Source: a virus
DNA: 36,352 bases
Virus record (IMG/VR): IMGVR_UViG_3300036881_000049
Coordinates: 1-36,352 of that record
Direction: 5' to 3' (one strand)
This document shows, piece by piece, positions 5,106 to 16,898 of this stretch. The notes beneath the pieces are model-generated. The model was not told the DNA's origin and did no database searches. It was given only the letters and a program-made list of their open reading frames with translations. Position 1 is the stretch's first letter, and every line of letters begins with the position of its first letter. Position numbers and translations under genes: made by a program.

Positions 5106-6962
5106 GTGCCTGCCCCTGCCAAGTACAGCTACTACGGCTTGAAAGTCCCGGAGACTACTCACCCCGTCAGCCGCGAGTTTTACTGCATCCAACATGGCGG
5201 CAAGTGGCAGAACAGAGCGGGACTTGATTGTGGCAACGGACTGGCCTTCCACTACTCCCAAGCCATCAAGCTCATCTGGCCGGACATTGACCAGCACGCT
5301 TGGTTCACGAAGTTCCTCGAAACCTGGCTGCATTACAAATACATCGGCGTCATCGGGCCGAAGAACAGCGGAAAGAGTTTTTGCGCCTCCATCTGCCATC
5401 TGGCGGATTACTACGCTTTCCCCACCTGCACTACCGTCATGATCTGCTCCACGACCAAGGAGCGCCTTGAAGACCGAATCTGGGGGGAGATCAAGAAGTT
5501 CCACCGGCAGGCTCAACATCGGGTGAACTGGCTTCCGGGGCATCTGATTGAAGGTCGGCAGCGGCTCATCACCGATGACCGCGACGATGCTGAGGAGGGC
5601 CGGGACTTCAGGAATGGGATGCTGGGGGTGCCGTGCCGGCGCGGCAATCAGTTCGTCGGCATCTCGGACTTCCAAGGGTTGAAGAACAAACGCATCCGGC
5701 TCTGCGGCGACGAGCTTGCCGCCCTGCCAAAAGCCTTCATTGACGCCATTGTGACGTTGGACGTGCAGGGCGATGTGAAGGTGACAGGTATGGGCAACCC
5801 TGCCACAACGACCGATTCATTGGGAGTGCTGTGCGAGCCGCACCAGAGCCTTGGGGGTTGGGATGGGGGTATTGACCAGACTCCCATAACCAAGACGTGG
5901 CGCACGCGCTTTGAGGACGGCATCTGTCTGCAACTGCCGGGGCCGGATTCCCCGAACAAAGACCAGAAGCGCGGCGAGCCGGTTCCGTACCCCTACCTCA
6001 TCAACAATGAGCAAATCGAGAAGGACGCCCGCACCTGGGGCCGGGAAGATTGGCACTTCACCATGTTCGACCTGGGCCGGATGCCTCGCGGCCAAGGCAG
6101 CAACCGCGTGCTCACCCGGCAGCTTTGCCTCACGCACAAGGCGATGCAGGCTCCGGTGTGGCTCAATTCCACCCGAACGCACATAACCTGCCTCGATGCC
6201 GCCTACCGGGCCGTCGGCGGGGATCGCTGCGTGCTGATGCGGCTGGCCTTCGGTCCTGAGTCGGATTATCCCAGCGATGCCGATGCCGGGCTTGCCGAGG
6301 CCATCATCAACCAGAGCCCTGATTCTCCGGGGCACCGTCAGATTCTCACACTGGCCGAGACGGTCATCGTTCCCATCAAGGCGGGCGACTTCGGAGACCC
6401 GGAAGACCAGATCGTAATGTTCGTTAAGAAAAAGCATGAGGAATGGGGCCTTGGACCGGAGCACTTCTACTTTGACGCGGGCATGAGGACGAGCCTGGTA
6501 AGCGCCTTTTGCCGCCTATGGTCAACGCGCGTCAACACCCTGGACTTCGGGGGCAAACCCTCTGACCGCAAAGTGTCGGCGGATATTGACGTGCTGGCGA
6601 AGGATTACTACGGGAAGCGCGTCACCGAGATTTGGTACACCTGGCGGCTCGCGGTCGAGTCCTACCAGGTTCGCGGCCTGAGTGATGACGTTGTGGCCGA
6701 GGGATGCCTGCGCGAGTTCTACCAGATCGCCGGGAACAAGATCGATGTGGAGACCAAGAAGGAGATGAAGGAGAAATGCTCCCGGTCGCCCGACTTGGCG
6801 GATTGCTTCTGCATCGGGCTATGGGGAGCCATCGAGCAAGGCTTCGTCATTCGCCGACTGGCCGAGGTCGAAGAGGATTACCGCGGCAACGCTTGGAAAT
6901 CCGAATTGCTGAAAAAAGCTGCCAAGGCGCGCCAGATCGGAGTATTGAATGAGACAGCATGA
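5106..6962 (+). CDS. terL: Terminase large subunit (ATPase and nuclease)
   Basis: The DNA-packaging motor that docks on the portal, hydrolyses ATP and cuts concatemers. The ATPase domain has Walker A GPKNSGKS at residues 84-91, Walker B IRLCGDE ending in Asp202-Glu203, and a likely coupling motif TGMGNP at about 227-232. The RNase H-like nuclease domain has acidic residues at Asp364 (TCLDAAYR), Asp457 (FYFDAG) and Asp563 or Asp566 (SPDLADC). At 618 residues it is slightly long for the family. It starts with GTG at 5106, five bases after a strong AAAGGAG site. It is unusual in lying on the plus strand inside an otherwise leftward structural region. Its stop overlaps the next start as ATGA. Confidence 0.93.
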   Translation: MPAPAKYSYYGLKVPETTHPVSREFYCIQHGGKWQNRAGLDCGNGLAFHYSQAIKLIWPDIDQHAWFTKFLETWLHYKYIGVIGPKNSGKSFCASICHLADYYAFPTCTTVMICSTTKERLEDRIWGEIKKFHRQAQHRVNWLPGHLIEGRQRLITDDRDDAEEGRDFRNGMLGVPCRRGNQFVGISDFQGLKNKRIRLCGDELAALPKAFIDAIVTLDVQGDVKVTGMGNPATTTDSLGVLCEPHQSLGGWDGGIDQTPITKTWRTRFEDGICLQLPGPDSPNKDQKRGEPVPYPYLINNEQIEKDARTWGREDWHFTMFDLGRMPRGQGSNRVLTRQLCLTHKAMQAPVWLNSTRTHITCLDAAYRAVGGDRCVLMRLAFGPESDYPSDADAGLAEAIINQSPDSPGHRQILTLAETVIVPIKAGDFGDPEDQIVMFVKKKHEEWGLGPEHFYFDAGMRTSLVSAFCRLWSTRVNTLDFGGKPSDRKVSADIDVLAKDYYGKRVTEIWYTWRLAVESYQVRGLSDDVVAEGCLREFYQIAGNKIDVETKKEMKEKCSRSPDLADCFCIGLWGAIEQGFVIRRLAEVEEDYRGNAWKSELLKKAAKARQIGVLNETA

Positions 6963-7588: not shown

Positions 7589-7882
7589 CTACTTGGTCGG
7601 CGAGTTGGTCTGCTGCGTCGCGGCGAGCGCCATGCCCGACTTTCCGAGGTCCACGACGGCGCCGGCCAGAATCGCGATGCTCTGCTGGTCGGGTGTGGTC
7701 TGGGTCGTTGTCAGGTAAAGCCCGTTGCTGGTGCCGTAGGTGCCCTGGTTGATGGTTTCAAGGAAGGCCCTGACGCTGATGCTGTCGGTTGTGTTGGTTC
7801 CGGTCGTGGTGCGAGAGGCGGTCACATTGATGCAGCCGCACAGCGCGGCGGCGGCGATTGAGGAGAGGATGATTCGTTTCAT
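7589..7882 (-). CDS. Small lipoprotein, possible outer-membrane lysis factor
   Basis: A 97-residue protein with a short basic N-terminus, a hydrophobic stretch and a lipobox-like ALCGC ending at Cys17, so a lipoprotein signal peptide is likely. The mature part is Thr/Ser-rich and contains no obvious coiled coil. Its ATG overlaps the stop of the holin-like gene as ATGA, and it follows two small membrane proteins, which suggests a lysis cassette. An outer-membrane spanin role is possible, but the Pro-rich character common in o-spanins is missing. A virion or host-surface lipoprotein is the alternative. Confidence 0.65.
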   Translation of the reverse strand: MKRIILSSIAAAALCGCINVTASRTTTGTNTTDSISVRAFLETINQGTYGTSNGLYLTTTQTTPDQQSIAILAGAVVDLGKSGMALAATQQTNSPTK

Positions 7883-8390: not shown

Positions 8391-8726
8391 TCATCGTTCA
8401 AGAAATCGCCCTTTCGGGGCTGGCGCGGCGCCCACCAAAGCGGCGAACGGTCCCGTTGCCGCTCCTCCCGGTGGGCCAACATAATAAATCGCCCCAGCCC
8501 CACCATTGCCGCTTAACACCTGCCAAAAGTTACCTGGCGGGTCTTTGACGATCTGGAAGCCAGCACCGTCGTATTCGATCTCGGACACTCGACGATACTC
8601 TTGATTTACCGCCGTAGTCCCCGCCCTCCAAAGAACCACCGCCCGATATGGCTTCGGATGTCGGAATCCGGTCAAGGTCACTAATACGATTGAAGCAATG
8701 AGAGTGGCGGTGATTCGAGACTTCAT
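8391..8726 (-). CDS. Secreted or membrane-anchored paralogue of the next protein's C-terminal domain
   Basis: A 111-residue protein with an N-terminal signal-like helix (residues 1-20). Residues about 35-105 align closely with the C-terminal domain of the next upstream protein: both have G-T-x-AVNQxY, EYDGxGxQI, WQVLSG, YYxGxPG and TGPFAAxVGA. This is a within-genome duplication in which one copy has a signal peptide and the other a Cys module. Unrecognised family. A fibre-tip or surface role is inferred from the fibre-like gene nearby. Confidence 0.6.
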   Translation of the reverse strand: MKSRITATLIASIVLVTLTGFRHPKPYRAVVLWRAGTTAVNQEYRRVSEIEYDGAGFQIVKDPPGNFWQVLSGNGGAGAIYYVGPPGGAATGPFAALVGAAPAPKGRFLER

Positions 8727-8729
8727 AAA

Positions 8730-9116
8730 TCATGGGCAGGCGACGAAAGCGCCCGTGGGATCGGGAGACGCGCCAACAAATGCGGCGAACGGTCCAGTCG
8801 GCGCGTTTCCGGGAATACCGGTATAGTAAGGACTCCCAAAGCCTCCGCTACCGCTTAGGACTTGCCAAAGATTGTCCACGGAATCGAATGCGATCTGGTA
8901 TCCAACCCCGTCATACTCCGCTGCCGACACCGGCTGGTAAGTCTGGTTGACGGCTGCGGTTCCGGCTCCGGTCAGGGCGATGCAGTTCAAAGCTGGAGAC
9001 CCGCCACACCCGGCCCACTTCGCGAGCAGCATCGTCTTGACCGCAGGCACCATGCCGGGCGGGATACATGAGAAACAGCGCGCGGCGGCGCTCAGGCTGG
9101 AAGGCGTGCAGTCCAT
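8730..9116 (-). CDS. Cys-module protein with duplicated C-terminal domain
   Basis: A 128-residue protein. The start was moved from 9170 to 9116, where ATG shares one base with the upstream stop (TGATG). The first 45 residues carry the local Cys module: Cys-T-P-x-x-L, then C-F-x-C-IPPGM, then AVKTMLL. Residues about 48-125 are the domain shared with the next gene downstream (AVNQTY, EYDGVGYQI, WQVLSG, GPFAAFVGA). The module also occurs in two genes nearer the capsid gene. Function unknown. Paired Cys suggest disulfides or metal binding. Confidence 0.65.
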   Translation of the reverse strand: MDCTPSSLSAAARCFSCIPPGMVPAVKTMLLAKWAGCGGSPALNCIALTGAGTAAVNQTYQPVSAAEYDGVGYQIAFDSVDNLWQVLSGSGGFGSPYYTGIPGNAPTGPFAAFVGASPDPTGAFVACP

Positions 9117-10495
9117 CAAAACGGTTTCCAGGTCATCGTCGGCGCTAGGGAGTAGGTCGTTGTGACCCATTCCCCGGGCTGCAAGGGTATCGTGCTCAGG
9201 CCAGACAGCGTAAGTCCGGTGCCGAGCGCGGTCCCGTTCACATCCACTTCGGATACCGTGCCTCCCGCAATGAACACGAACACATTCTTGGTCAGGGTGT
9301 TGGTCCAGTTGAACGCGCTCGCGCCTACGGAGATGGTCGTCACTGCGAGCTTGTTGGAGCAGTAGGAGGCGACGCTGTTCGTGCCAATTATAAGGTCTCC
9401 ACTAATCAGGTTTGACACAATTAGACGAGCATAGTTGGTGGAATTATAGCCGTGAACCTGAAGTTCGTTCGCGTTTGGCGCGTTCATCGAAACGTGAGCT
9501 TGAAGGTGAACATTTCCACCAGCCGTTGCTGACACATAAACATCCCTCCCGGCTTGCAGGTCGTAGGTATATGTCGTTAAGGGCCTATTTCCGCTCGTCC
9601 CTATGGTCCATACTATGTCCTTGGAGAACGTTAAGTTCCCTGACATGGTGACGTTAGATACTCCGACATTTCCCGTCCACCCCGCCGAACTACCGTAGGC
9701 ATAGACCTGGTTTGTCGCCCCGCCCGACACGCTGGCTGCTGATACGCCTGTAATTCCTCCTCCGCCCCCTGTGAAACTGCCCGCAGAAACGGTGCTGCTG
9801 AACGTCGCGGTCAGACCCGTAATGCTCCCTCCCGAGATAAGAATGCTGCTATTGGCGTTGCTGAACAATTCTCCAATCGGGCTGATATATGCCCCGTTGG
9901 TGAGAACGGTGCTCCCGTAAATCTGGATCGGCCCGGTGAGCGTCAGGTTCGTGAGGTTGTGGTTCATCACAGATTCGGGCACGGTGCCTTGAAGATTCCC
10001 GGCCGAAAGGCTGCTGATGCTGGTTCCGTTTCCATAGAACCCTCCGCCAATCGTCGTGACATTCCCGTAAGCGGTCAGGTTAGTAAAGTCCCCGTCACCA
10101 TAAACGATGAGGTTGTGACCTCCAGGATTGGTCGCGTTCGTGATCGTCAGCACCCCGTTTTCCGTCCCGGTCCAGACGGTGAGATTGGTTGCGATGCCTC
10201 CAGGTGTGAGCACGTAGGCCGCTGGATTGGTGTACACAATGCTGGTGAAGCCGTTGGTTTGGACGATATTCCCACCTCCGGGGCCATTCGTCGGCACGTC
10301 AATCAGGTACGTGCGCGTCTGCCCAACCTGTGTGAAGGTCACAAAGACGTTGCTGCCCGCCGTGGTTTGATTCACCGGGGCCGTGTTGACGGTGAAAAAG
10401 TTGTGCTGGAATGGCAGCGGGAATCCGGCGCCCATGACGGCCAGAATCAGCCACATCAGGCCCGCAAATCCGAATACGCAGAGTGTTCTTTTCAT
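9116..10495 (-). CDS. Tail-fibre-like protein with N-terminal hydrophobic helix
   Basis: A 459-residue protein. Residues about 5-25 form a signal or anchor helix. The rest is dominated by Asn, Thr, Gly and Ser with short beta repeats such as NLTNLTLTGPIQIYG and FYGNGTSISSLSAGNLQGTVP. That last pattern is common in phage and Verrucomicrobiota fibre-like proteins (GTGSGLTGLNAxxLxSGTVP type). The C-terminus has an EVDVNGTALGTG module. A receptor-binding or fibre function is inferred. The hydrophobic N-terminus is odd for a fibre and could mean export or membrane tethering. It is linked to neighbours by short stop/start overlaps. Confidence 0.7.
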   Translation of the reverse strand: MKRTLCVFGFAGLMWLILAVMGAGFPLPFQHNFFTVNTAPVNQTTAGSNVFVTFTQVGQTRTYLIDVPTNGPGGGNIVQTNGFTSIVYTNPAAYVLTPGGIATNLTVWTGTENGVLTITNATNPGGHNLIVYGDGDFTNLTAYGNVTTIGGGFYGNGTSISSLSAGNLQGTVPESVMNHNLTNLTLTGPIQIYGSTVLTNGAYISPIGELFSNANSSILISGGSITGLTATFSSTVSAGSFTGGGGGITGVSAASVSGGATNQVYAYGSSAGWTGNVGVSNVTMSGNLTFSKDIVWTIGTSGNRPLTTYTYDLQAGRDVYVSATAGGNVHLQAHVSMNAPNANELQVHGYNSTNYARLIVSNLISGDLIIGTNSVASYCSNKLAVTTISVGASAFNWTNTLTKNVFVFIAGGTVSEVDVNGTALGTGLTLSGLSTIPLQPGEWVTTTYSLAPTMTWKPF

Positions 10496-10791
10496 TTCGA
10501 TAGTATCTCCCGGATCGTGCCTGGCTGAATGGGGGTGCCAAGGCGGTGTGTTTCATGGACGAATCCGAGCAAGACGCGGTTTCCCTTTTTGGCGACTTCC
10601 AACTGGTTTCTGAGGGTCTGATTATCCCTCTCAAGTGATTGGCATTCCGCAGCAGCCCTTTGGAAAGACTCCCTCGATACGTCCAAGGCACCGATCAGGG
10701 CGTCCACTTCATGGCACAGCGCCAAAACCGTTGGCCGCGTGAGCCAGAACCTCCAACCCTTCGCTCGCTCTCGAATCTCGACGGTGTTCAT
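10492..10791 (-). CDS. Small coiled-coil protein
   Basis: A 99-residue protein with a likely coiled coil from about residue 38 to 70 (SFQRAAAECQSLERDNQTLRN). The N-terminus is basic and aromatic (AKGWRFWLTRP). Both ends join neighbours by ATGA-type overlaps, so it belongs to the fibre/Cys-module operon. Unrecognised family. A fibre-assembly or minor structural role is possible but unsupported. Confidence 0.6.
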   Translation of the reverse strand: MNTVEIRERAKGWRFWLTRPTVLALCHEVDALIGALDVSRESFQRAAAECQSLERDNQTLRNQLEVAKKGNRVLLGFVHETHRLGTPIQPGTIREILSK

Positions 10792-11195
10792 AAGATGAAT
10801 GGTACCCAGGCATTACCAGTCTGGTCCCAAAACTTCCATTGGCCCGCCGTCGGGCTGGTGGAATCGTTGTCGTAACCAAGTCCAAAGGCGAATGCGCAAG
10901 GGTCAACTGGACCACCGGACTGAGCCACAAGGCAGGCGTTCACATTACCACCGCCGCCTGTGTGTAATATTTCACACAAAATCTGAGTCTGGATCAACTG
11001 AAGCTGCCCGCCCGGATAGCAGGACCAGCAAGCTCCCTCGGCGAGAAGGCTTTGCGCGTCACATGCGGCCATTGGATTTGCGGCCAGCAGGATTTGCCTC
11101 AGCAACTCGGTCTTGATGATGGCCAGTTCGCCAGCGCCTTTCCCGGTGAAGTCGCTGCACGCGGCCAGTATCGCGTTGGGGCTGCATTGGGACAT
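10788..11195 (-). CDS. Double Cys-module protein next to the capsid region
   Basis: A 135-residue protein with two copies of the local module. Copy 1 (residues about 4-37) begins CSPNAILAAC but lacks the CIPPG turn. Copy 2 (residues about 45-76) reads CDAQSLLAEGACWSC followed by YPGG and a TQILCEIL helix. The C-terminal 45 residues (CAFAFGLGYDND ... WDQTGNAWVPFI) look like a small beta module. The paralogous genes lie on both sides. Virion or host-surface role inferred from location. Function unknown. Confidence 0.65.
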   Translation of the reverse strand: MSQCSPNAILAACSDFTGKGAGELAIIKTELLRQILLAANPMAACDAQSLLAEGACWSCYPGGQLQLIQTQILCEILHTGGGGNVNACLVAQSGGPVDPCAFAFGLGYDNDSTSPTAGQWKFWDQTGNAWVPFIL

Positions 11196-11198
11196 GGT

Positions 11199-11438
11199 TC
11201 ACTTATTAGCGAGGGAGCAAAGGAGGTACGTGTCCACGATGGCATTCGTGCCTTGCAGCTTGTCGAACCCTGCCGCGATGGCCTCAGCCAGAAGCACCTT
11301 CGGGTCAGTGGTGCCGCCGTTCATTACCGCGATCAAGTAAGTCTGTACGGCGGCCTGCATCCCTGGTGGAATGCAGTCGTTGTAGCACGTGGCCGCCTGC
11401 ATCAAGGCGTTCGGGTCGCATGAAATGGCTGCCGGCAT
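11199..11438 (-). CDS. Single Cys-module protein
   Basis: A 79-residue protein consisting almost wholly of the Cys module: CDPNALMQAATC, then CIPPGMQAAVQTYLI, followed by a second helical half (LLAEAIAAGFDKLQG) with a late Cys. It is the clearest member of the family shared with the genes at 8730-9116 and 10788-11195. It lies 3-4 bases from both neighbours in the operon immediately after the capsid gene. Function unknown; the fixed Cys spacing suggests a disulfide-stapled helical hairpin. Confidence 0.65.
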   Translation of the reverse strand: MPAAISCDPNALMQAATCYNDCIPPGMQAAVQTYLIAVMNGGTTDPKVLLAEAIAAGFDKLQGTNAIVDTYLLCSLANK

Positions 11439-11441
11439 ACG

Positions 11442-11726
11442 TCATTGATACATGGGTGATTCGGGCATCGGGGCCTCGTCGGTCATCTCGCCCTCGCCGC
11501 CCTTGTCTTCGCCGCCGCCCTCGTCATAGGCGCAATGGTATTCCCCGGTGTCCATAACCTCGGTCACGCGCAGCGGCAGCTTGTCGCCGGGCTTGAGGCC
11601 GGGGCAAACCTCAGAATTGACCAGCACCATTTTCGATTCATCGGCCTCGCCCTTTTCGTCGGGAGCATTGTCCTTGGGCATGGGAGCTTGGTCTTCCGCC
11701 GTATCGTAGTAGTCCTGTACAGGCAT
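11442..11726 (-). CDS. Small acidic protein downstream of capsid
   Basis: A 94-residue, strongly acidic protein (EDQAPMPKDNAPDEKGEADES, then a Gly/Glu-rich C-terminus). A short middle segment, VCPGLKPGDKLPLRVTEVMD, looks like a small beta barrel strand pair. Proteins like this often sit next to phage capsid genes, but no family is recognised. It is separated from the capsid gene by a strong hairpin, so it may be expressed at a different level. Confidence 0.55.
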   Translation of the reverse strand: MPVQDYYDTAEDQAPMPKDNAPDEKGEADESKMVLVNSEVCPGLKPGDKLPLRVTEVMDTGEYHCAYDEGGGEDKGGEGEMTDEAPMPESPMYQ

Positions 11727-11766
11727 AACTCACGTCTAACGTCTTGCTGGTCGTTGTGCAAGGAGG

Positions 11767-11809
11767 TTCCCCGCCGCGCCACAACAACCACGAAGGACGC
11801 GGCGGGGAA
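11767..11809 (-). terminator. Strong hairpin after the capsid gene
   Basis: A perfect 12-bp stem (positions 11767-11778 with 11798-11809, mainly G/C) encloses a 19-base loop just past the capsid stop. No U-tract follows, so it may be a pause site, an RNA-stability element or a weak terminator instead of a classical one. In the leftward transcript its loop contains GTGGTTGTTGTG, the exact complement of a 12-mer near the starts of two genes at 15.8-16.1 kb. Confidence 0.6.
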
Positions 11810-11822
11810 TGGATACCGATGA

Positions 11823-13373
11823 TTACAGATCGGTCTGAGTCGTCTGCGACTCTTCAACCGGCGTCGGGCGCGGGCCGTCCTGGCGGCTGCCGGAAGCCTT
11901 AAGGCTGCCGTCGCTGCTGAAGTCGGTCGGAACACCAGTGCCGTAGGTCGCGTTATACGCGGCAGGCGGCGTGCAGCCGGGCAGTCCCGACTCGTAAATC
12001 TGGCTCGGATAGCCGGGATCGGGATTGCAGCACGGGATTTCGGGAATGCAGAACTGCTCGCGGCGGTGGAAGAAGACTTCCAGGAACTCCGTGTGCTTGG
12101 GCCGGACCCAATACTTGAAGTCCGCGATGAACTGCAACTTGTTCCGGCGCTTGTTCTCGATGACGTTGCCGGACTGGTCGGCGCCCAGGTTGTCCATGAC
12201 CGCCTGCCACTTGCCGCCGAAGTCCCGATGGCCGAAGGGCAGTTCGTTGTGCAGCGAAGCGCCGTCGGGCGTGAGAAGCTGCATCCCGGACTTGTGATGA
12301 ATCTGGCTAAGCGAAAACTGCGAACGGTCGTAATCGCTGTTGTAGTCGCTGCCGATGCCCGCCGCGCCGCCCGCGCCGGTCGTGATGCTGTTCTTGTAGG
12401 GCAGCACCACTTGGTAGCGGTAGCGGTTGGGAGCCGCGCCCGCGCCCAGGTCGGTGACGTAGTTGAACCGAAGCTGCATCGGGTCAACCCGGACCATGAA
12501 GTTGCCGATCTGGCCGGAGAAGCCGTAGCGCCAGTACTTGCCGGTCGCATCGAAGTCCTGAAAGCGCCAGTTGCCCAGAACGTTCGGGCTCGAACCTCCG
12601 CCGACGCCGGTCTGACCGCCGAGATGATCCAGTTCCCAAGTGGTGTCCATGTCGCTCACGAATTCGATGAACGGGCTGGTATCCTTGAACGGATTCTTGC
12701 CGGCGTAACCGCGCAGCATCAGCGGGTTGAACCGGCGCTGAAGCATCTGCGGGGCGAGCTTGAACACGCGCGAGGGCGAGGCGCTGCAATCGAAATACAT
12801 TTCCTCGTCGCCGTTCGGTCCTGCGGCGGTCCAGGTGTAGGTGAAAGCGCCGTCGGTCCCTGCGGCTCCGCTGTTGGCGTTGGCGACGTGATGCCGGTTT
12901 GACCAGAGCAAATGCCGCTTGCGCAGGAAGCCGCTGCTGATGGCGATGGTCGCGGGCTTGAGAATGTCGCTGATGATCTGGCTGATGTGCTCCTCGAAAT
13001 GCGTGATGTGCATGTTCGAGTCGTAGCAGATGAGGGGGGTGCCCCAGTTCTGCTGCTCGGCGTACCAAGTCAACCGATCTGCGCCCCAACCGATCTGATG
13101 TTCGGGAAGGTCGCAAGGATGGCCCTGACAGCCGGGGCCGTTGGCGTACACCCGGTTCCAAAGCTTGGTCACGTTGGGGTACACCACCCGGAAACGGTCT
13201 TGAACGACTTCAACCGGGGTGCCGGGCGGCAAGGTGCCGGTTTCTACGTTGTAAAGCCATCCGTCGTTCGGGCGGATGTCTTCCATGATGATTTCGTCAA
13301 ACTTGGGGGTCTGGTCGACGAGGAACTGAGGTTGATCACATGCTGCTATGATCCCGGATGTTGGACATGCCAT
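11823..13373 (-). CDS. Probable major capsid protein
   Basis: A 516-residue protein with no transmembrane segment and mixed beta and aromatic content, following a scaffold-like gene and a portal-like gene. That order is typical of a capsid operon, so the call rests mainly on context. The N-terminus CPTSGIIAAC weakly resembles the first Cys copy in the 10788-11195 protein. Several Cys cluster near the C-terminus (CIPEIPCC), which could give disulfides in the shell. The C-terminal 50 residues are Ser/Gly/Pro-rich and probably disordered. No clear ribosome site is seen before the ATG, and the gap upstream is full of hairpins. Confidence 0.65.
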   Translation of the reverse strand: MACPTSGIIAACDQPQFLVDQTPKFDEIIMEDIRPNDGWLYNVETGTLPPGTPVEVVQDRFRVVYPNVTKLWNRVYANGPGCQGHPCDLPEHQIGWGADRLTWYAEQQNWGTPLICYDSNMHITHFEEHISQIISDILKPATIAISSGFLRKRHLLWSNRHHVANANSGAAGTDGAFTYTWTAAGPNGDEEMYFDCSASPSRVFKLAPQMLQRRFNPLMLRGYAGKNPFKDTSPFIEFVSDMDTTWELDHLGGQTGVGGGSSPNVLGNWRFQDFDATGKYWRYGFSGQIGNFMVRVDPMQLRFNYVTDLGAGAAPNRYRYQVVLPYKNSITTGAGGAAGIGSDYNSDYDRSQFSLSQIHHKSGMQLLTPDGASLHNELPFGHRDFGGKWQAVMDNLGADQSGNVIENKRRNKLQFIADFKYWVRPKHTEFLEVFFHRREQFCIPEIPCCNPDPGYPSQIYESGLPGCTPPAAYNATYGTGVPTDFSSDGSLKASGSRQDGPRPTPVEESQTTQTDL

Positions 13374-13402
13374 AAATTCTAATCACATTTTCGTTTCTGT
13401 TT

Positions 13403-13567
13403 CCGAGAGTCGGATGCCTGCCGTGCAGACAATCTCTCGGTGTGTTAGAACCTGATGGCGGCTAGCTTGCGTCAGTTCTATTGAAGCCGCGCCGTTGGTA
13501 ACGGGTCGGTGGCCCGTCCGGTTTGAGTCCGGCAACTATCGGGCTTTTACGCCCTGTAGCGTAAAGG
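13403..13567 (-). promoter_or_regulatory. Hairpin-packed leader upstream of the capsid gene
   Basis: The 211-base gap between scaffold and capsid genes holds a series of inverted repeats: 13403-13440 (7-bp outer stem CCGAGAG/CTCTCGG with an inner CTGC/GCAG); 13446-13480 (about 11 pairs with single-base bulges); 13501-13517 (ACGGG/CCCGT); 13518-13532 (CCGG/CCGG, 7-base loop); and 13544-13567 (TTTACGC/GCGTAAA plus flanks). GTTG at 13494-13497 can pair with CAAC at 13533-13536 and enclose the third and fourth hairpins as a three-way junction. Candidate cis-acting RNA controlling capsid synthesis; no known riboswitch recognised. Confidence 0.5.
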
Positions 13568-13584
13568 TGTCAACAGGAATCTTT

Positions 13585-14889
13585 TCAGAGGGGTCGGACG
13601 ATCTTGGCCATCGCTTGCCGAAGGGCGTCCATTCCGTGGGCGGGTTGCTCTTGCGATGGTGCTTCTCTGCCGCCCGTAGAGGGGGTCGTTTTCTTGAACG
13701 CCGCCAGTTCTTTCGCGGTGGCCTCAAGCTCTTTGGTTACTCGTTTGAACTCTCGAAAAAGTGGCGTGTAGCCGATGGCCCGGTTGCGAATGGCCGCGTG
13801 CTGCCTGACAATCTCGGCGCGTTGCTCCGGGGTATGACGCGGGTCCAAAGCGTTCTGCTGATAAGCGCCCTCGACAAACTTGGTCGCTTTATCCAGAGCC
13901 TCATTCCAAGCGGTGTCGCCGTCCTTGGGCTTCAGCCAAGTGCCGATCTGAGGATTCTCCAAGGCTTCCTTGACGGCGCTCTCGTAGGTGGTCTTCACGA
14001 AGCTGGACACCTTGCCCATTTGCTCCTGGCGCTGAGCAAGACGCTGCTGGTCGCGCGTGGCGCCCGTCTTCTTCAACTCGACGAGCTTGGATTCTTGAGC
14101 GTCGAACAGGTCGCGGATGGTCTTGCGGTGGGCCATCACGTCATTGGCAAAACTTCCAAACACTTTTTCAGCCACTTCGCGGGCGGGTCGTAGGTCTAGG
14201 TTGACGAGTTCGAGCATGTCATCGGGAGTGAATCGGCGAGCGGGGGCGACGGGATTGTTCGGGTCGGAAACGGTCAGATCTCTGAACTCGTACATAGCCC
14301 GTCGAAATGACGCCTCGTACTCAGACTGGGCCTTTTGAATTTCGGGGTCGTATTTCTTGGCGTTGACGTAGCGCAATTCCTCCTGCATCTCGGCATTCTG
14401 TTTGCGGAGGGATTCTACTTCGGAGCTTGCGGCCTTGCGCTGGTCTTCGGGGATGATCTGCTTGCGAAGTTCCAAAGCTTCAGTTTCGGCCTTGAGAGCA
14501 CGAGCCTTGAACTGGTCCAGCAGTTTCCAATCTAGCTTGGTCTTGCCAGTCTTGGGACCCTCGGTCCCGGTCGGCGGCTGGTCCTCGGTAGAAGGAGCCG
14601 CACCCGACTTACTGGGAGGAGCAGTTTCGGGATCGGGTGCGGCTTCGGGAGGCTGCGGGGAAGGCGCAGCTTTGGAAGATGGTTCGTTACCGGGTCGTGC
14701 GGCGGGAGCGTCCTCGCCGCCGAACTTCTTACGCAAGGCATCGCTCAGACTTGCCTTGGCGCTGCCGGGTTTGGCGGGCTCGCGTGCGGCCAGAGATGGC
14801 TGCATCTGAGAGGCGATGATGACGGGCCTTGAATCGGTTGCGGGTGCCGCTGGCGGTGCGGGGGGGGCTGCGGGGGCTTCGACTGGCAT
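13585..14889 (-). CDS. Probable scaffolding protein
   Basis: A 434-residue protein. Residues 1-115 are Pro/Ala/Ser/Lys-rich and probably disordered. A long charged helical region follows (about 120-330, heptad-like; LRKQIIPEDQRKAASSEVES, then ELRYVNAKKYDPEIQKAQ), and a basic helical C-terminus (TKELEATAKELAAFKK). High Glu/Lys/Gln/Ala with almost no Cys or Trp, placed directly upstream of the capsid gene, is the usual scaffold pattern. The start at 14889 lies 3 bases past the preceding stop with no clear ribosome site, suggesting coupling. Confidence 0.65.
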   Translation of the reverse strand: MPVEAPAAPPAPPAAPATDSRPVIIASQMQPSLAAREPAKPGSAKASLSDALRKKFGGEDAPAARPGNEPSSKAAPSPQPPEAAPDPETAPPSKSGAAPSTEDQPPTGTEGPKTGKTKLDWKLLDQFKARALKAETEALELRKQIIPEDQRKAASSEVESLRKQNAEMQEELRYVNAKKYDPEIQKAQSEYEASFRRAMYEFRDLTVSDPNNPVAPARRFTPDDMLELVNLDLRPAREVAEKVFGSFANDVMAHRKTIRDLFDAQESKLVELKKTGATRDQQRLAQRQEQMGKVSSFVKTTYESAVKEALENPQIGTWLKPKDGDTAWNEALDKATKFVEGAYQQNALDPRHTPEQRAEIVRQHAAIRNRAIGYTPLFREFKRVTKELEATAKELAAFKKTTPSTGGREAPSQEQPAHGMDALRQAMAKIVRPL

Positions 14890-14892
14890 GGC

Positions 14893-15258
14893 TTATGTGG
14901 TGATGATGTTGAGGAGTTTGCCTGGAATCATTACTACCTTTTGGACGTTGCACATCGTCAACTGAAGGTGTCCGGTCATTGCCTGTCCGTTAAGCTGGAC
15001 AACCATCGGTCGGCTGTGTTTATAGGACCACGTTGCCTCAAGGTGTTCTGGCTCCAAACATTCAGGGTGATGGTGCCGGACGAAAATTTCTTTGTTCCGT
15101 TTGAGGATGGCAATGTCCCGCAGCAGAATACTGCGATGCCTTCTCAGGAGCCACATCAGCACCAACATGTACCCCAGACTCATCCTCGCCGTCACAGTGC
15201 TCCAAAACGGCCACCTGTCGTTGGGATCGTAATACCTGAAAGGTTGCGGTCCGCGCAT
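14893..15258 (-). CDS. Hypothetical basic protein with one possible membrane helix
   Basis: A 121-residue protein. Residues about 25-38 (MSLGYMLVLMWLL) form one short hydrophobic segment. A His-rich stretch (VRHHHPECLEPEHLEATW) follows, then a compact C-terminal half. A good AAGGAG site lies about 10 bases before the ATG. Unrecognised family. It lies between a small gene and the scaffold in the virion operon. Confidence 0.5.
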   Translation of the reverse strand: MRGPQPFRYYDPNDRWPFWSTVTARMSLGYMLVLMWLLRRHRSILLRDIAILKRNKEIFVRHHHPECLEPEHLEATWSYKHSRPMVVQLNGQAMTGHLQLTMCNVQKVVMIPGKLLNIITT

Positions 15259-15262
15259 ACCC

Positions 15263-15574
15263 TCAATTCTCCTTCAGGTTGTCGCTGGTCCGCTTCGGCG
15301 CGGGCGGCGGCACTTCGCCCAGCATCTTCACTTGAAGGAGGTATTCCATAGCCCCGGCCATCTTGTAACCCGCCGCGGCAGCCGCCTTGTCGTCGGGAAG
15401 GTTCTGCGTCAGGACAATGCAGTATTGCAACATGGCGAAGTCGGTCCCGCGCTCAAACTCGCGGCTGTCCACGAGGCTTCGGTGCTTGGTGAGATTGTCG
15501 GCGCTCTGCTGGAAACGCTGCTTCGGTAGGAGGTTTTGGATGACTCGCTGTGGTTGTTGTTCTGGTGTGCTCAT
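15263..15574 (-). CDS. Small hypothetical protein with MSxxxQQPQR N-terminus
   Basis: A 103-residue protein. The start was moved to 15574, which makes an ATGA overlap with the upstream stop and follows a GAAGAAG site. It begins MSTPEQQPQR, the same N-terminal pattern as the next two upstream genes. The body is mostly helical (DFAMLQYCIVLTQN; YKMAGAMEYLLQVK) with a Pro-rich tail. A scaffold or portal accessory role is only positional inference. Confidence 0.6.
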   Translation of the reverse strand: MSTPEQQPQRVIQNLLPKQRFQQSADNLTKHRSLVDSREFERGTDFAMLQYCIVLTQNLPDDKAAAAAGYKMAGAMEYLLQVKMLGEVPPPAPKRTSDNLKEN

Positions 15575-15780
15575 CGATCTTCTTCCACTTTGGTATGTAT
15601 GATCCAAAGTTTTGTAATTCTCACAAAGTTTCCACCGCCGTTTACGCTCATTGACCATTCGACAGCGCCCTCTGCTGTTGCTGTGAACCCCACTGGTCCT
15701 TCCTTCATCTCGCAAAGGAAGATTGGAATTCTTTTGAGAATGGTCGCTGTTCTTTGTGGTTGTTGTGCTTCGTTACTCAT
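15571..15780 (-). CDS. Small beta-type hypothetical protein with shared N-terminus
   Basis: A 69-residue protein starting MSNEAQQPQR, then a body of alternating hydrophobic residues (FVRITKLWIIHTKVEED) that suggests a small beta fold. Both ends use ATGA overlaps. The codons after the start contain CACAACAACCAC, which recurs in the neighbouring gene start and is complementary to a downstream hairpin loop. Function unknown. Confidence 0.55.
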   Translation of the reverse strand: MSNEAQQPQRTATILKRIPIFLCEMKEGPVGFTATAEGAVEWSMSVNGGGNFVRITKLWIIHTKVEEDR

Positions 15781-16058
15781 AGTCCTGTTTCGATTAGGTG
15801 CTTGTTCACGGCATATCTGAGATCGTCAATCGCGGCCAACCGTTCGCTTGGTTTCTGCATCGGTGTGCTGAACTTCCCTGTTTTGTGCAGCACACAACCG
15901 AAGTCATGCGCCGTGCTCATAAAATTGCATGGCTCTGGTGGTAACAATATTCTCATCGCCATGTCTGCGTTCATGCAGACCCCCAATCCGATGAAGTTGG
16001 GGCACGGGCTCCAATACTCACAGGTTCGGCAGAGTGGTTGTTGTGCTGTATCGCTCAT
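15777..16058 (-). CDS. Cys-rich small protein, possible zinc-binding
   Basis: A 93-residue protein starting MSDTAQQP. The first half has a CxxC (CRTCEYW) and further Cys at CPNFIGLGVC, CNF and FGCVLHK, resembling the small CxxCxxW proteins common in phages. The C-terminal third is helical (ERLAAIDDLRYAVNKHL). It shares the N-terminal MSxxxQQP and CACAACAACCAC features with the next genes. Zinc binding is inferred. Confidence 0.6.
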   Translation of the reverse strand: MSDTAQQPLCRTCEYWSPCPNFIGLGVCMNADMAMRILLPPEPCNFMSTAHDFGCVLHKTGKFSTPMQKPSERLAAIDDLRYAVNKHLIETGL

Positions 16059-16098
16059 AAACTGTTTCTCCCGTAATACGCCCTGCCCCTGAATGCGG

Positions 16099-16281
16099 TC
16101 AACACCAGAATTGCTTTTTCTTAATGTGAACGTCGCTGCTCTTCACTCCGAGGCGTGGGGCTTTGTGCATCTTGGTCGCCAGCTTCGTGACGGACTTGAG
16201 CGCCTTCAGGAGCGGCTTGGACTGGCTGTGCTCGGCTACGGGGATGCCGAGGGGTCGGTATTGAGGAAAGCTCTCGTTCAT
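16099..16281 (-). CDS. Small basic protein
   Basis: A 60-residue Lys-rich protein (KPLLKALKSVTKLATKMHK ... VHIKKKQFWC). The start was moved from 16356 to 16281, where ATG makes an ATGA overlap with the upstream stop; the longer reading overlaps the upstream zinc protein by about 79 bases. The amphipathic basic helix could bind nucleic acid or membranes. No family recognised. About 40 bases without features separate it from the next gene. Confidence 0.55.
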   Translation of the reverse strand: MNESFPQYRPLGIPVAEHSQSKPLLKALKSVTKLATKMHKAPRLGVKSSDVHIKKKQFWC

Positions 16282-16490
16282 TTGGCCTCGAAGTCTCCGC
16301 ACCAGTAGTCTTCCCGCGTGCCAGAATTTCCCTTCACCGGCGAGTATCGGTGGCAATTACCCAGTGCGTAAATCTGGTCCTTGTCCTTGGTAAGAACCCC
16401 CTGGCAGGTAATAGGCTCGTCTTCTCCACTGCCGTTTGCCCACATGGCGGGACTCCACCATTTACAGTTTTTGCATACGTTTTTGTTCAT
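16278..16490 (-). CDS. Small Cys-rich CxxCKWW protein
   Basis: A 70-residue protein with CKNCKWW near the N-terminus, two spaced Cys (ITCQG, GNCHRY) and a DYWCGDFE end. That arrangement is widespread in phages and looks like a minimal zinc site. It follows the 53-residue AT-hook-like gene by two bases and overlaps the basic gene as ATGA. Molecular function unknown. Confidence 0.65.
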   Translation of the reverse strand: MNKNVCKNCKWWSPAMWANGSGEDEPITCQGVLTKDKDQIYALGNCHRYSPVKGNSGTREDYWCGDFEAK

Positions 16491-16492
16491 AA

Positions 16493-16654
16493 TTACCTCA
16501 CCCAGTGCTGACGTGGTTTCTTGTTCGACGGCCTGCCGCGCTTCGGCTGCTTGTGGAAGAACTTGGTCAGGCTATTTTCAAATTTTGGGCGCTGGTCAGC
16601 CATTGCCTGCGCTGACTTGCCGCCGCTTGGGATGCTTGATTGTCCGCAACTCAT
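16493..16654 (-). CDS. 53-residue AT-hook-like protein
   Basis: A short gene whose ATG at 16654 overlaps the stop of the next upstream gene (ATGA) and whose TAA lies two bases before the CxxCKWW gene. It begins MSCGQSSIPSGG and ends with a basic tail containing KRGRPSNKKPR. The GRP core flanked by Lys and Arg is a classical AT-hook, so minor-groove DNA binding is plausible. Its first 18 bases are an exact direct repeat of a site 244 bases away. Confidence 0.6.
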   Translation of the reverse strand: MSCGQSSIPSGGKSAQAMADQRPKFENSLTKFFHKQPKRGRPSNKKPRQHWVR

Positions 16655-16860
16655 AGGTTTTCAGGAAGGTACTGACACTCGAAAGGAGCGTCCCGGTATT
16701 CGGGGTTGGTCACAACAGCCTCTCCCAATCGTATGAACGGGATAATGAGAATCCCACTCGGCAATGGCAGGCGGTTCCGAATGCAGTCCATGAACTTGTC
16801 AGCATCGCTTTTGGTTCTGAACCGTGGCGGCGTGATATTGAATGCGCGATGACCGATCAT
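16651..16860 (-). CDS. Small hypothetical protein
   Basis: A 69-residue protein starting MIGHRAFNITPP. The chosen ATG follows AAGGA by 4-5 bases; a longer reading from TTG at 16893 lacks a better site and overlaps the repeat. The body has KSDADKFMDCIRN then a LPSGILIIPFIR strand, suggesting a compact alpha/beta fold. Flanked by the 18-bp direct repeats. Unrecognised. Confidence 0.5.
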   Translation of the reverse strand: MIGHRAFNITPPRFRTKSDADKFMDCIRNRLPLPSGILIIPFIRLGEAVVTNPEYRDAPFECQYLPENL

Positions 16861-16898
16861 GTTTCCTTCAGGATGGTTTCTGATTGTCCGCAACTCAT
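16857..16898 (-). CDS. Possible 13-residue leader peptide from a repeat copy
   Basis: The second repeat copy opens a short frame, MSCGQSETILKET, whose TGA overlaps the ATG of the next small gene. It starts as the AT-hook gene does and then stops. It may be a coupling leader or the remnant of a gene interrupted by the intervening cassette. Very short, so low confidence. Confidence 0.25.
   Translation of the reverse strand: MSCGQSETILKET

Follow-up and report, generated by a model that had tools for sequence, protein, structure and literature searches.

Module copies in the window

The window analysed here is the whole of a 36,352-base virus record from IMG/VR (IMGVR_UViG_3300036881_000049, positions 1 to 36,352). 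On its minus strand, downstream of a conserved gene that we call capsid-like, lies a compact array in which three genes carry copies of a cysteine-bearing module of about 36 residues (Table 1). The 438 window open reading frames (ORFs) of at least 30 amino acids (aa) were searched with a profile of all module copies, those of the window excepted. The four copies named in a preliminary description of this DNA were recovered: two in the 135-aa protein (independent E-values, iE, of 4.5e-6 for copy 1 and 3.4e-17 for copy 2), one in the module fusion (1.4e-15) and one in the first half of the 79-aa protein (1.6e-15). The best iE in 20 shuffled ORF sets was 0.02. The second half of the 79-aa protein is cysteine-poor and gives only partial matches on its own (0.46 and 4.2); because relatives' tandem proteins have their second copy in that position, we infer that it is a degenerate fifth copy. 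With this copy counted, two genes carry two copies, where the preliminary description had seen one.

The module fusion joins one module to a domain that, as described before, recurs without the module behind a signal-peptide-like N-terminus, namely in the adjacent 111-aa protein (60% identity over 80 aa, E=2e-24). The same domain aligns with the C-termini of proteins from three related loci (L009, L010 and L053; related loci are cited by L numbers throughout). The inner ATG at 9116 is the likely start of the fusion and overlaps the stop of the upstream gene. From 11442 down, neighbouring genes overlap by a few bases or lie about three bases apart by their coordinates, arranged as in one operon.

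Table 1 Genes of the module array in the window, and examples of fibre-like proteins with predicted Sec-type signal peptides in related loci
Source	Feature	Coordinates	Strand	Remarks
Window	Capsid-like gene, 516 aa	11823-13373	-	Conserved gene upstream of the module array; 47 related loci
Window	Acidic gene, 94 aa	11442-11726	-	Between the capsid-like gene and the modules
Window	Stand-alone tandem module protein, 79 aa	11199-11438	-	Copy 1 about 11322-11426; putative degenerate copy 2 about 11202-11309
Window	Two-module protein, 135 aa	10788-11195	-	Copy 1 11082-11195; copy 2 10953-11072; Gly linker; W-rich C-terminal tail
Window	Coiled-coil-like gene, 99 aa	10492-10791	-	Precedes the fibre gene
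Window	Fibre-like protein, 459 aa	9116-10495	-	Signal-peptide-like N-terminus
Window	Module fusion, 128 aa from the likely start at 9116	8730-9170 (ORF)	-	Module 9000-9116; partner domain 8733-9008
Window	111-aa protein	8391-8726	-	Signal-peptide-like N-terminus and the partner domain of the fusion; no module
L004	Fibre-like protein	13550-16876		Sec-type signal peptide
L026	Fibre-like protein	9554-15617		Sec-type signal peptide
L069	Fibre-like protein	11235-13484		Sec-type signal peptide

The module family and its linkage to the capsid-like gene

The preliminary description had proposed a profile search and a check for association with capsid genes. Relatives were collected from IMG/VR with the window's capsid-like protein and then with an alignment of ten such proteins, which gave 49 distinct contigs (three loci, L031, L057 and L058, are second pieces of contigs in this set). 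In 46 of the 49, the profile finds a module cluster downstream of the capsid-like gene on the same strand. In L008, L044 and L045, the remaining three, the equivalent place is taken by a tandem protein without the motif cysteines, which hhalign matches to a 26-row alignment, mostly of relatives' tandem proteins, with Prob 97.2 and E=4.2e-11. A head decoration protein is expected next to the major capsid gene; the neighbour of the module is a candidate capsid gene. The preliminary description had further seen half a module in the capsid N-terminus; this finds no support, as the best module-profile iE among 55 capsid-like proteins was 3.5.

A reverse search with three module alignments (A5, A12 and A13) yielded 16 contigs outside the first set, 14 of them with a capsid-like homologue upstream, in some cases only 25-35% identical to that of the window. 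The two without such a homologue are L025, whose contig begins 275 bases before its module ORF, and L075, which is taken up below.

Distances were taken from the window and the other contig-unique sources with a capsid-like gene, 64 in all. From the capsid-like gene to the start of the first module ORF there are 392 bases at the median (range 283-1535), and the most distant module ORF starts 4,392 bases after that gene; no module ORF was found outside the cluster in the DNA examined of these 64 loci. The distance scan lists 56 of the 64 as positive; of the eight unlisted, five (L017, L036, L040, L049 and L067) are missing through the removal of identical proteins and are otherwise positive, and three are the cysteine-free L008, L044 and L045. 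When 32 whole records were scanned with an early 18-row profile, which gave no match at E<=1 in five of them, the module matches formed, by reading, one cluster per record; one antisense match inside a cluster was taken as spurious.

Of the outcomes that the preliminary description would have taken as refutation, a known characterised family or nothing beyond chance, neither came about: the profile search revealed a wide family, with no named Pfam or PHROG match over the module and nothing among PDB sequences up to E=10. tblastn against GenBank phage records gave no match for the 79-aa protein, the window's capsid-like protein or two divergent capsid-like proteins, and of three module proteins of relatives, one had none and two had only chance-level matches. 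No relatives were found among GTDB genome contigs, so that no host was found. Judged from these comparisons, the module copies constitute one family, undescribed in the libraries and open-licence papers searched.

Module chains and their partner domains

Chain architectures were counted after removal of identical proteins, leaving 58 loci with 128 module chains and 212 copies; within ORFs already holding a module, weak additional copies were counted up to an iE of 5. One copy is present in 60 chains, two in 55, three in 11, and four and five in one chain each. Stand-alone multi-module proteins occur in 37 of the 58 loci and fusions, with more than 20 residues past the last module, in 55; both types occur in 34. 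In a typical array, a stand-alone tandem of two or three modules is accompanied by fusions. Module chains start with the module and, by eye, have no signal peptide of their own.

The partners are diverse. Clustering by blastp (E<=1e-4) sorts the 76 C-termini of at least 40 residues into 32 groups of up to 14 members, and many fusions carry small domains rather than fibres. In the 55 fusions scanned, Pfam matches were LRR_5 (four), fn3 and Laminin_G_3 (two each), YadA_head and FlgD_ig (one each) and five other families once each, and PHROG matches were to one virion structural protein and to tail proteins. Across the arrays, the partner kinds include FN3, BspA-LRR, LamG, Ig and YadA-head domains and W-rich tails. 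The shuffling of modules beside the capsid-like gene, first suspected from the window alone, is strongly confirmed across the related genomes.

Two long ORFs, L005 4491-6350 and L039 11977-13869, hold modules, a W-rich tail, a hydrophobic segment and a fibre-like part in one frame; each is either a true fusion or a pair of genes in the same frame, the second starting inside the ORF.

Cysteine pattern of the module

Alignments of 153 and of 212 copies show four cysteine columns, spaced C-x10-C-x(2,3)-C-x14 or so-C: C1 before helix 1, C2 and C3 at the turn and C4 at the end of helix 2. Of the 212 copies, 183 have both C2 and C3, 21 have neither and eight have one of them. C1 and C4 are distributed by chain. 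The 60 single-module chains have both in 30 cases, neither in 29 and only C1 in one. The 55 two-module chains comprise 13 with a split pair, C1 in the first copy alone and C4 in the last alone, as in the window's 79-aa protein; 17 in which each copy has both; 23 without either; and two exceptions. Nine of the 11 three-module chains have none, and the other two can be read as a closed copy followed by a split pair. The four-module chain (L041) has C1 in its first copy and C4 in its last, and the five-module chain has neither.

Read as balanced brackets, C1 and C4 fit 125 of the 128 chains. Of the chains with any C1 or C4, 63 of 66 are balanced, whereas 2000 shuffles, which ignored kinship, averaged 39.0 and reached 49 at most. 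On a tree of 29 capsid-like proteins, the cysteine state of the tandem protein changes at least four times. The three exceptions are L059 13354-13746, the window's module fusion and its 135-aa protein, in which copy 1 lacks C3 and C4. Whether a unit has one, two or four hairpins, the outer pair encloses all of it, an arrangement suggestive of a disulfide staple. We infer that C2 pairs with C3 and C1 with C4, and that the outer disulfide closes a unit with any number of hairpins, such as a four-helix bundle.

Structure predictions and the capsid-like gene

The AlphaFold2 (AF2) model of the 128-aa fusion, made from 20 sequences, has helices at residues 5-12 and 23-34 followed by strands, with a mean predicted local distance difference test score (pLDDT) of 60, and the module is accordingly modelled as a helical hairpin. 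This weak model has no fold match at E<=0.001 in PDB or BFVD. The product of 11823-13373 was labelled capsid because the gene is conserved, because of its size and because of a weakly scaffold-like neighbour: the upstream gene 13585-14889 has a weak head-scaffold PHROG match (E=0.0027). It is an unproven candidate capsid gene.

Signal-peptide proteins near the array

Exported-looking proteins crowd the region. Among non-module ORFs of at least 150 aa within 9 kb after the capsid-like gene, 75 of 224 have a signal-peptide-like N-terminus by a hydrophobicity rule of our own, versus 10 of 448 elsewhere in the same loci, near-identical loci being included; at least one such ORF lies near the array in 48 of the 64 loci. 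Of 40 chosen signal-peptide proteins that were scanned, some match tail fibre, collagen-like minor tail, LamG or beta-helix families. Tailed-phage fibres are normally attached in the cytoplasm, and Sec-type signal peptides on proteins that look like fibres (Table 1) are unexpected for tailed phages. If real, they challenge the usual view that such fibres are made and attached only there.

The pairing of a module fusion with a signal-peptide protein through a common tip domain, seen in the window, recurs between L026 13386-15617 and L043 12264-12743 and between L003 15120-16520 and L033 2930-5485; a weaker match links L038 11470-13851 and L012 12334-13149 (E=6e-4). Tips common to both kinds of protein suggest two delivery routes for the same tips. 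One speculative scheme, which we consider rather unlikely, is a surface assembled in two compartments. Modules would dock in the cytoplasm as a socket, with a socket disulfide spanning any number of hairpins, and Sec-exported fibres and tips would fold and oxidise in the periplasm, then be added to virions at lysis, or else keep other phages off the receptors; either route would be open to the same tip, as with the window's module fusion and 111-aa protein.

Proposed role of the module and alternatives

A constant anchor combined with many unrelated domains of exposed type, several per genome and beside structural genes, fits a docking module of the virion surface. We hypothesize, at somewhat better than even odds, that the hairpin attaches exchangeable binding domains to the phage particle, and most likely to its head shell. 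Each genome would produce, from the cluster just after the capsid-like gene, usually a bare tandem protein and at least one chain in which modules, often followed by a Gly-rich linker, carry an exchangeable C-terminal domain. Several binding tips would thus dress the virion through one standard plug, and the bare tandem could fill sites without a tip or form a base. The C2-C3 disulfide at the turn and the C1-C4 disulfide at the outer ends would form once the virion leaves the reducing cytoplasm, and the latter would enclose one, two or more hairpins. The family, where it lies, its shuffling and the cysteine rule are seen in the sequences; virion location, docking, disulfides and adhesion are proposed on that basis. 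The module is real and coherent, and an anchor family is a good hypothesis for it.

Several observations weigh against this proposal. All loci with a capsid-like gene represent one lineage; shared ancestry explains part of the linkage, which may be inherited order alone. In L075, no capsid-like gene lies in the 4.2 kb upstream of the module protein, which instead precedes a coiled-coil gene and a long fibre gene. The capsid-like protein has no match in the family and PDB searches, its AF2 prediction gave no usable model (pLDDT 31), and a named Pfam or PHROG family is matched by only a minority of the 55 fusions scanned. Of the three chains that break the cysteine rule, two belong to the window, where only the 79-aa tandem obeys it, and C1 and C4 go together in four of four independent contrasts (p=0.125), too few for significance. 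Finally, gene order alone cannot decide between the head and a fibre hub. The suggestion of a decoration or fibre-attachment family stands as the best reading, the partners that can be named being of adhesion or fibre type, and its two halves, docking to the capsid and docking to fibre or tail, are not separable with these data.

The module might instead be a tail or fibre adaptor, with hairpins from several chains co-assembling into a neck or tail hub that holds the long fibres encoded downstream. We regard this as possible, if less than probable. Coiled-coil and fibre genes follow immediately after a two-module W-tail protein in the window, L062, L066, L069, L074 and L075, an order that favours a fibre role for at least that member; modules and a fibre-like part share one ORF in L005 and L039, and some fusions have PHROG tail matches. 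The short distance from the capsid-like gene to the cluster and the many fusions to small domains speak against it. The proteins might also act in or on the infected cell, for example as adhesins or as receptor blockers against superinfection, as the partner domain found with a signal peptide and the surrounding exported-looking proteins would suggest. This is very doubtful, given that module chains begin with the module itself and by eye lack a signal peptide, that fusion C-termini match virion structural and tail families and that the cluster is tied to structural genes. There is next to no likelihood that the module is a zinc-binding or regulatory finger, despite the CxxC or CxxxC at the turn and a subthreshold match to Pfam zf-Tim10_DDP (E=0.04, 13.9 bits versus a cut-off of 22.3): L008, L044 and L045 have the sequence signature but no motif cysteines, many copies have two cysteines only, and C1 and C4 may sit in different copies of one chain.

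Comparison with known systems

CHCH and alpha-hairpinin folds consist of two antiparallel helices with an inner and an outer pair of cysteines. The module, too, would have two helices and such pairs. It differs from these folds in that C2 and C3 lie at the turn and C1 and C4 may fall in different repeats, and the cysteine columns of the 153 and 212 copies contain no twin CX3C or CX9C motif of the Tim10/DDP and CHCH kind.

A functional parallel is pb10 of phage T5, in which a single five-helix N-terminal capsid anchor is joined by a linker to one exposed Ig-like domain (PMC5292684). Both combine a small alpha-helical N-terminal anchor, a linker and an exposed, adhesion-type C-terminal domain, and by this analogy we read the module as working like pb10 in the proposed role. 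In contrast to pb10 as described there, the module is a hairpin of about 36 residues, single or in tandem, with cysteines, present in several genes per genome and attached to many unrelated partners; capsid binding is a property of pb10 and a proposal for the module. For kinship with pb10, there was no PDB sequence match and no PDB fold match at E<=0.001, the model being weak (pLDDT 60) and the two not directly compared.

Phage crAss001 carries different head fibres, gp21 and gp29, on one capsid and has disulfide-bonded virion parts (PMC10172136). It thereby offers precedents for several fibre proteins on one capsid and for disulfides in tailed-phage virions; no common short anchor module is described in the portion of that paper available to us. 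T4 Hoc and the BACON proteins of gut phages are modular Ig-like adhesins (PMC13370021, PMC7602432), and they share with the module chains interchangeable surface domains on phage particles. There the displayed domains vary, whereas here the anchor is the constant part.

If the proposal is true, these phages, a group without a convincing match in the GenBank phage records searched, possess a natural plug-in display system in which one short anchor serves many binding domains, and which explains how they change their surface tips. Display work would then gain a compact anchor stapled by cysteines, and the module motif would help to annotate virion surface proteins of uncultured phages.

Other genes of the window

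Counterparts of the 135-aa two-module W-tail protein occur in L062-L069, L074 and L075. The 99-aa coiled-coil-like protein that follows it resembles, by eye, the N-terminus of the long fibre in L062, L066 and L069 and a gene in L075, and the fibre-like protein encoded next has no family match. The acidic gene of about 90 aa has similar-looking genes, also judged by eye, at the same place in the relatives listed.

The window contains a terminase large subunit gene (5106-6962, +; PHROG E=3.1e-7), on the strand opposite to the capsid-like gene and the module array, and a DnaB helicase was identified. Most other window genes tested are without a family match, and no tRNA was found. A 678-aa protein (91-2124, -), with no PHROG match, has N-terminal repeats of a short YL(V/I)xP-Q/KxY(D/N)L-like unit. 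A 97-aa protein (7589-7882, -) has, by eye, a lipoprotein-like N-terminus and is perhaps a lysis protein of spanin type.

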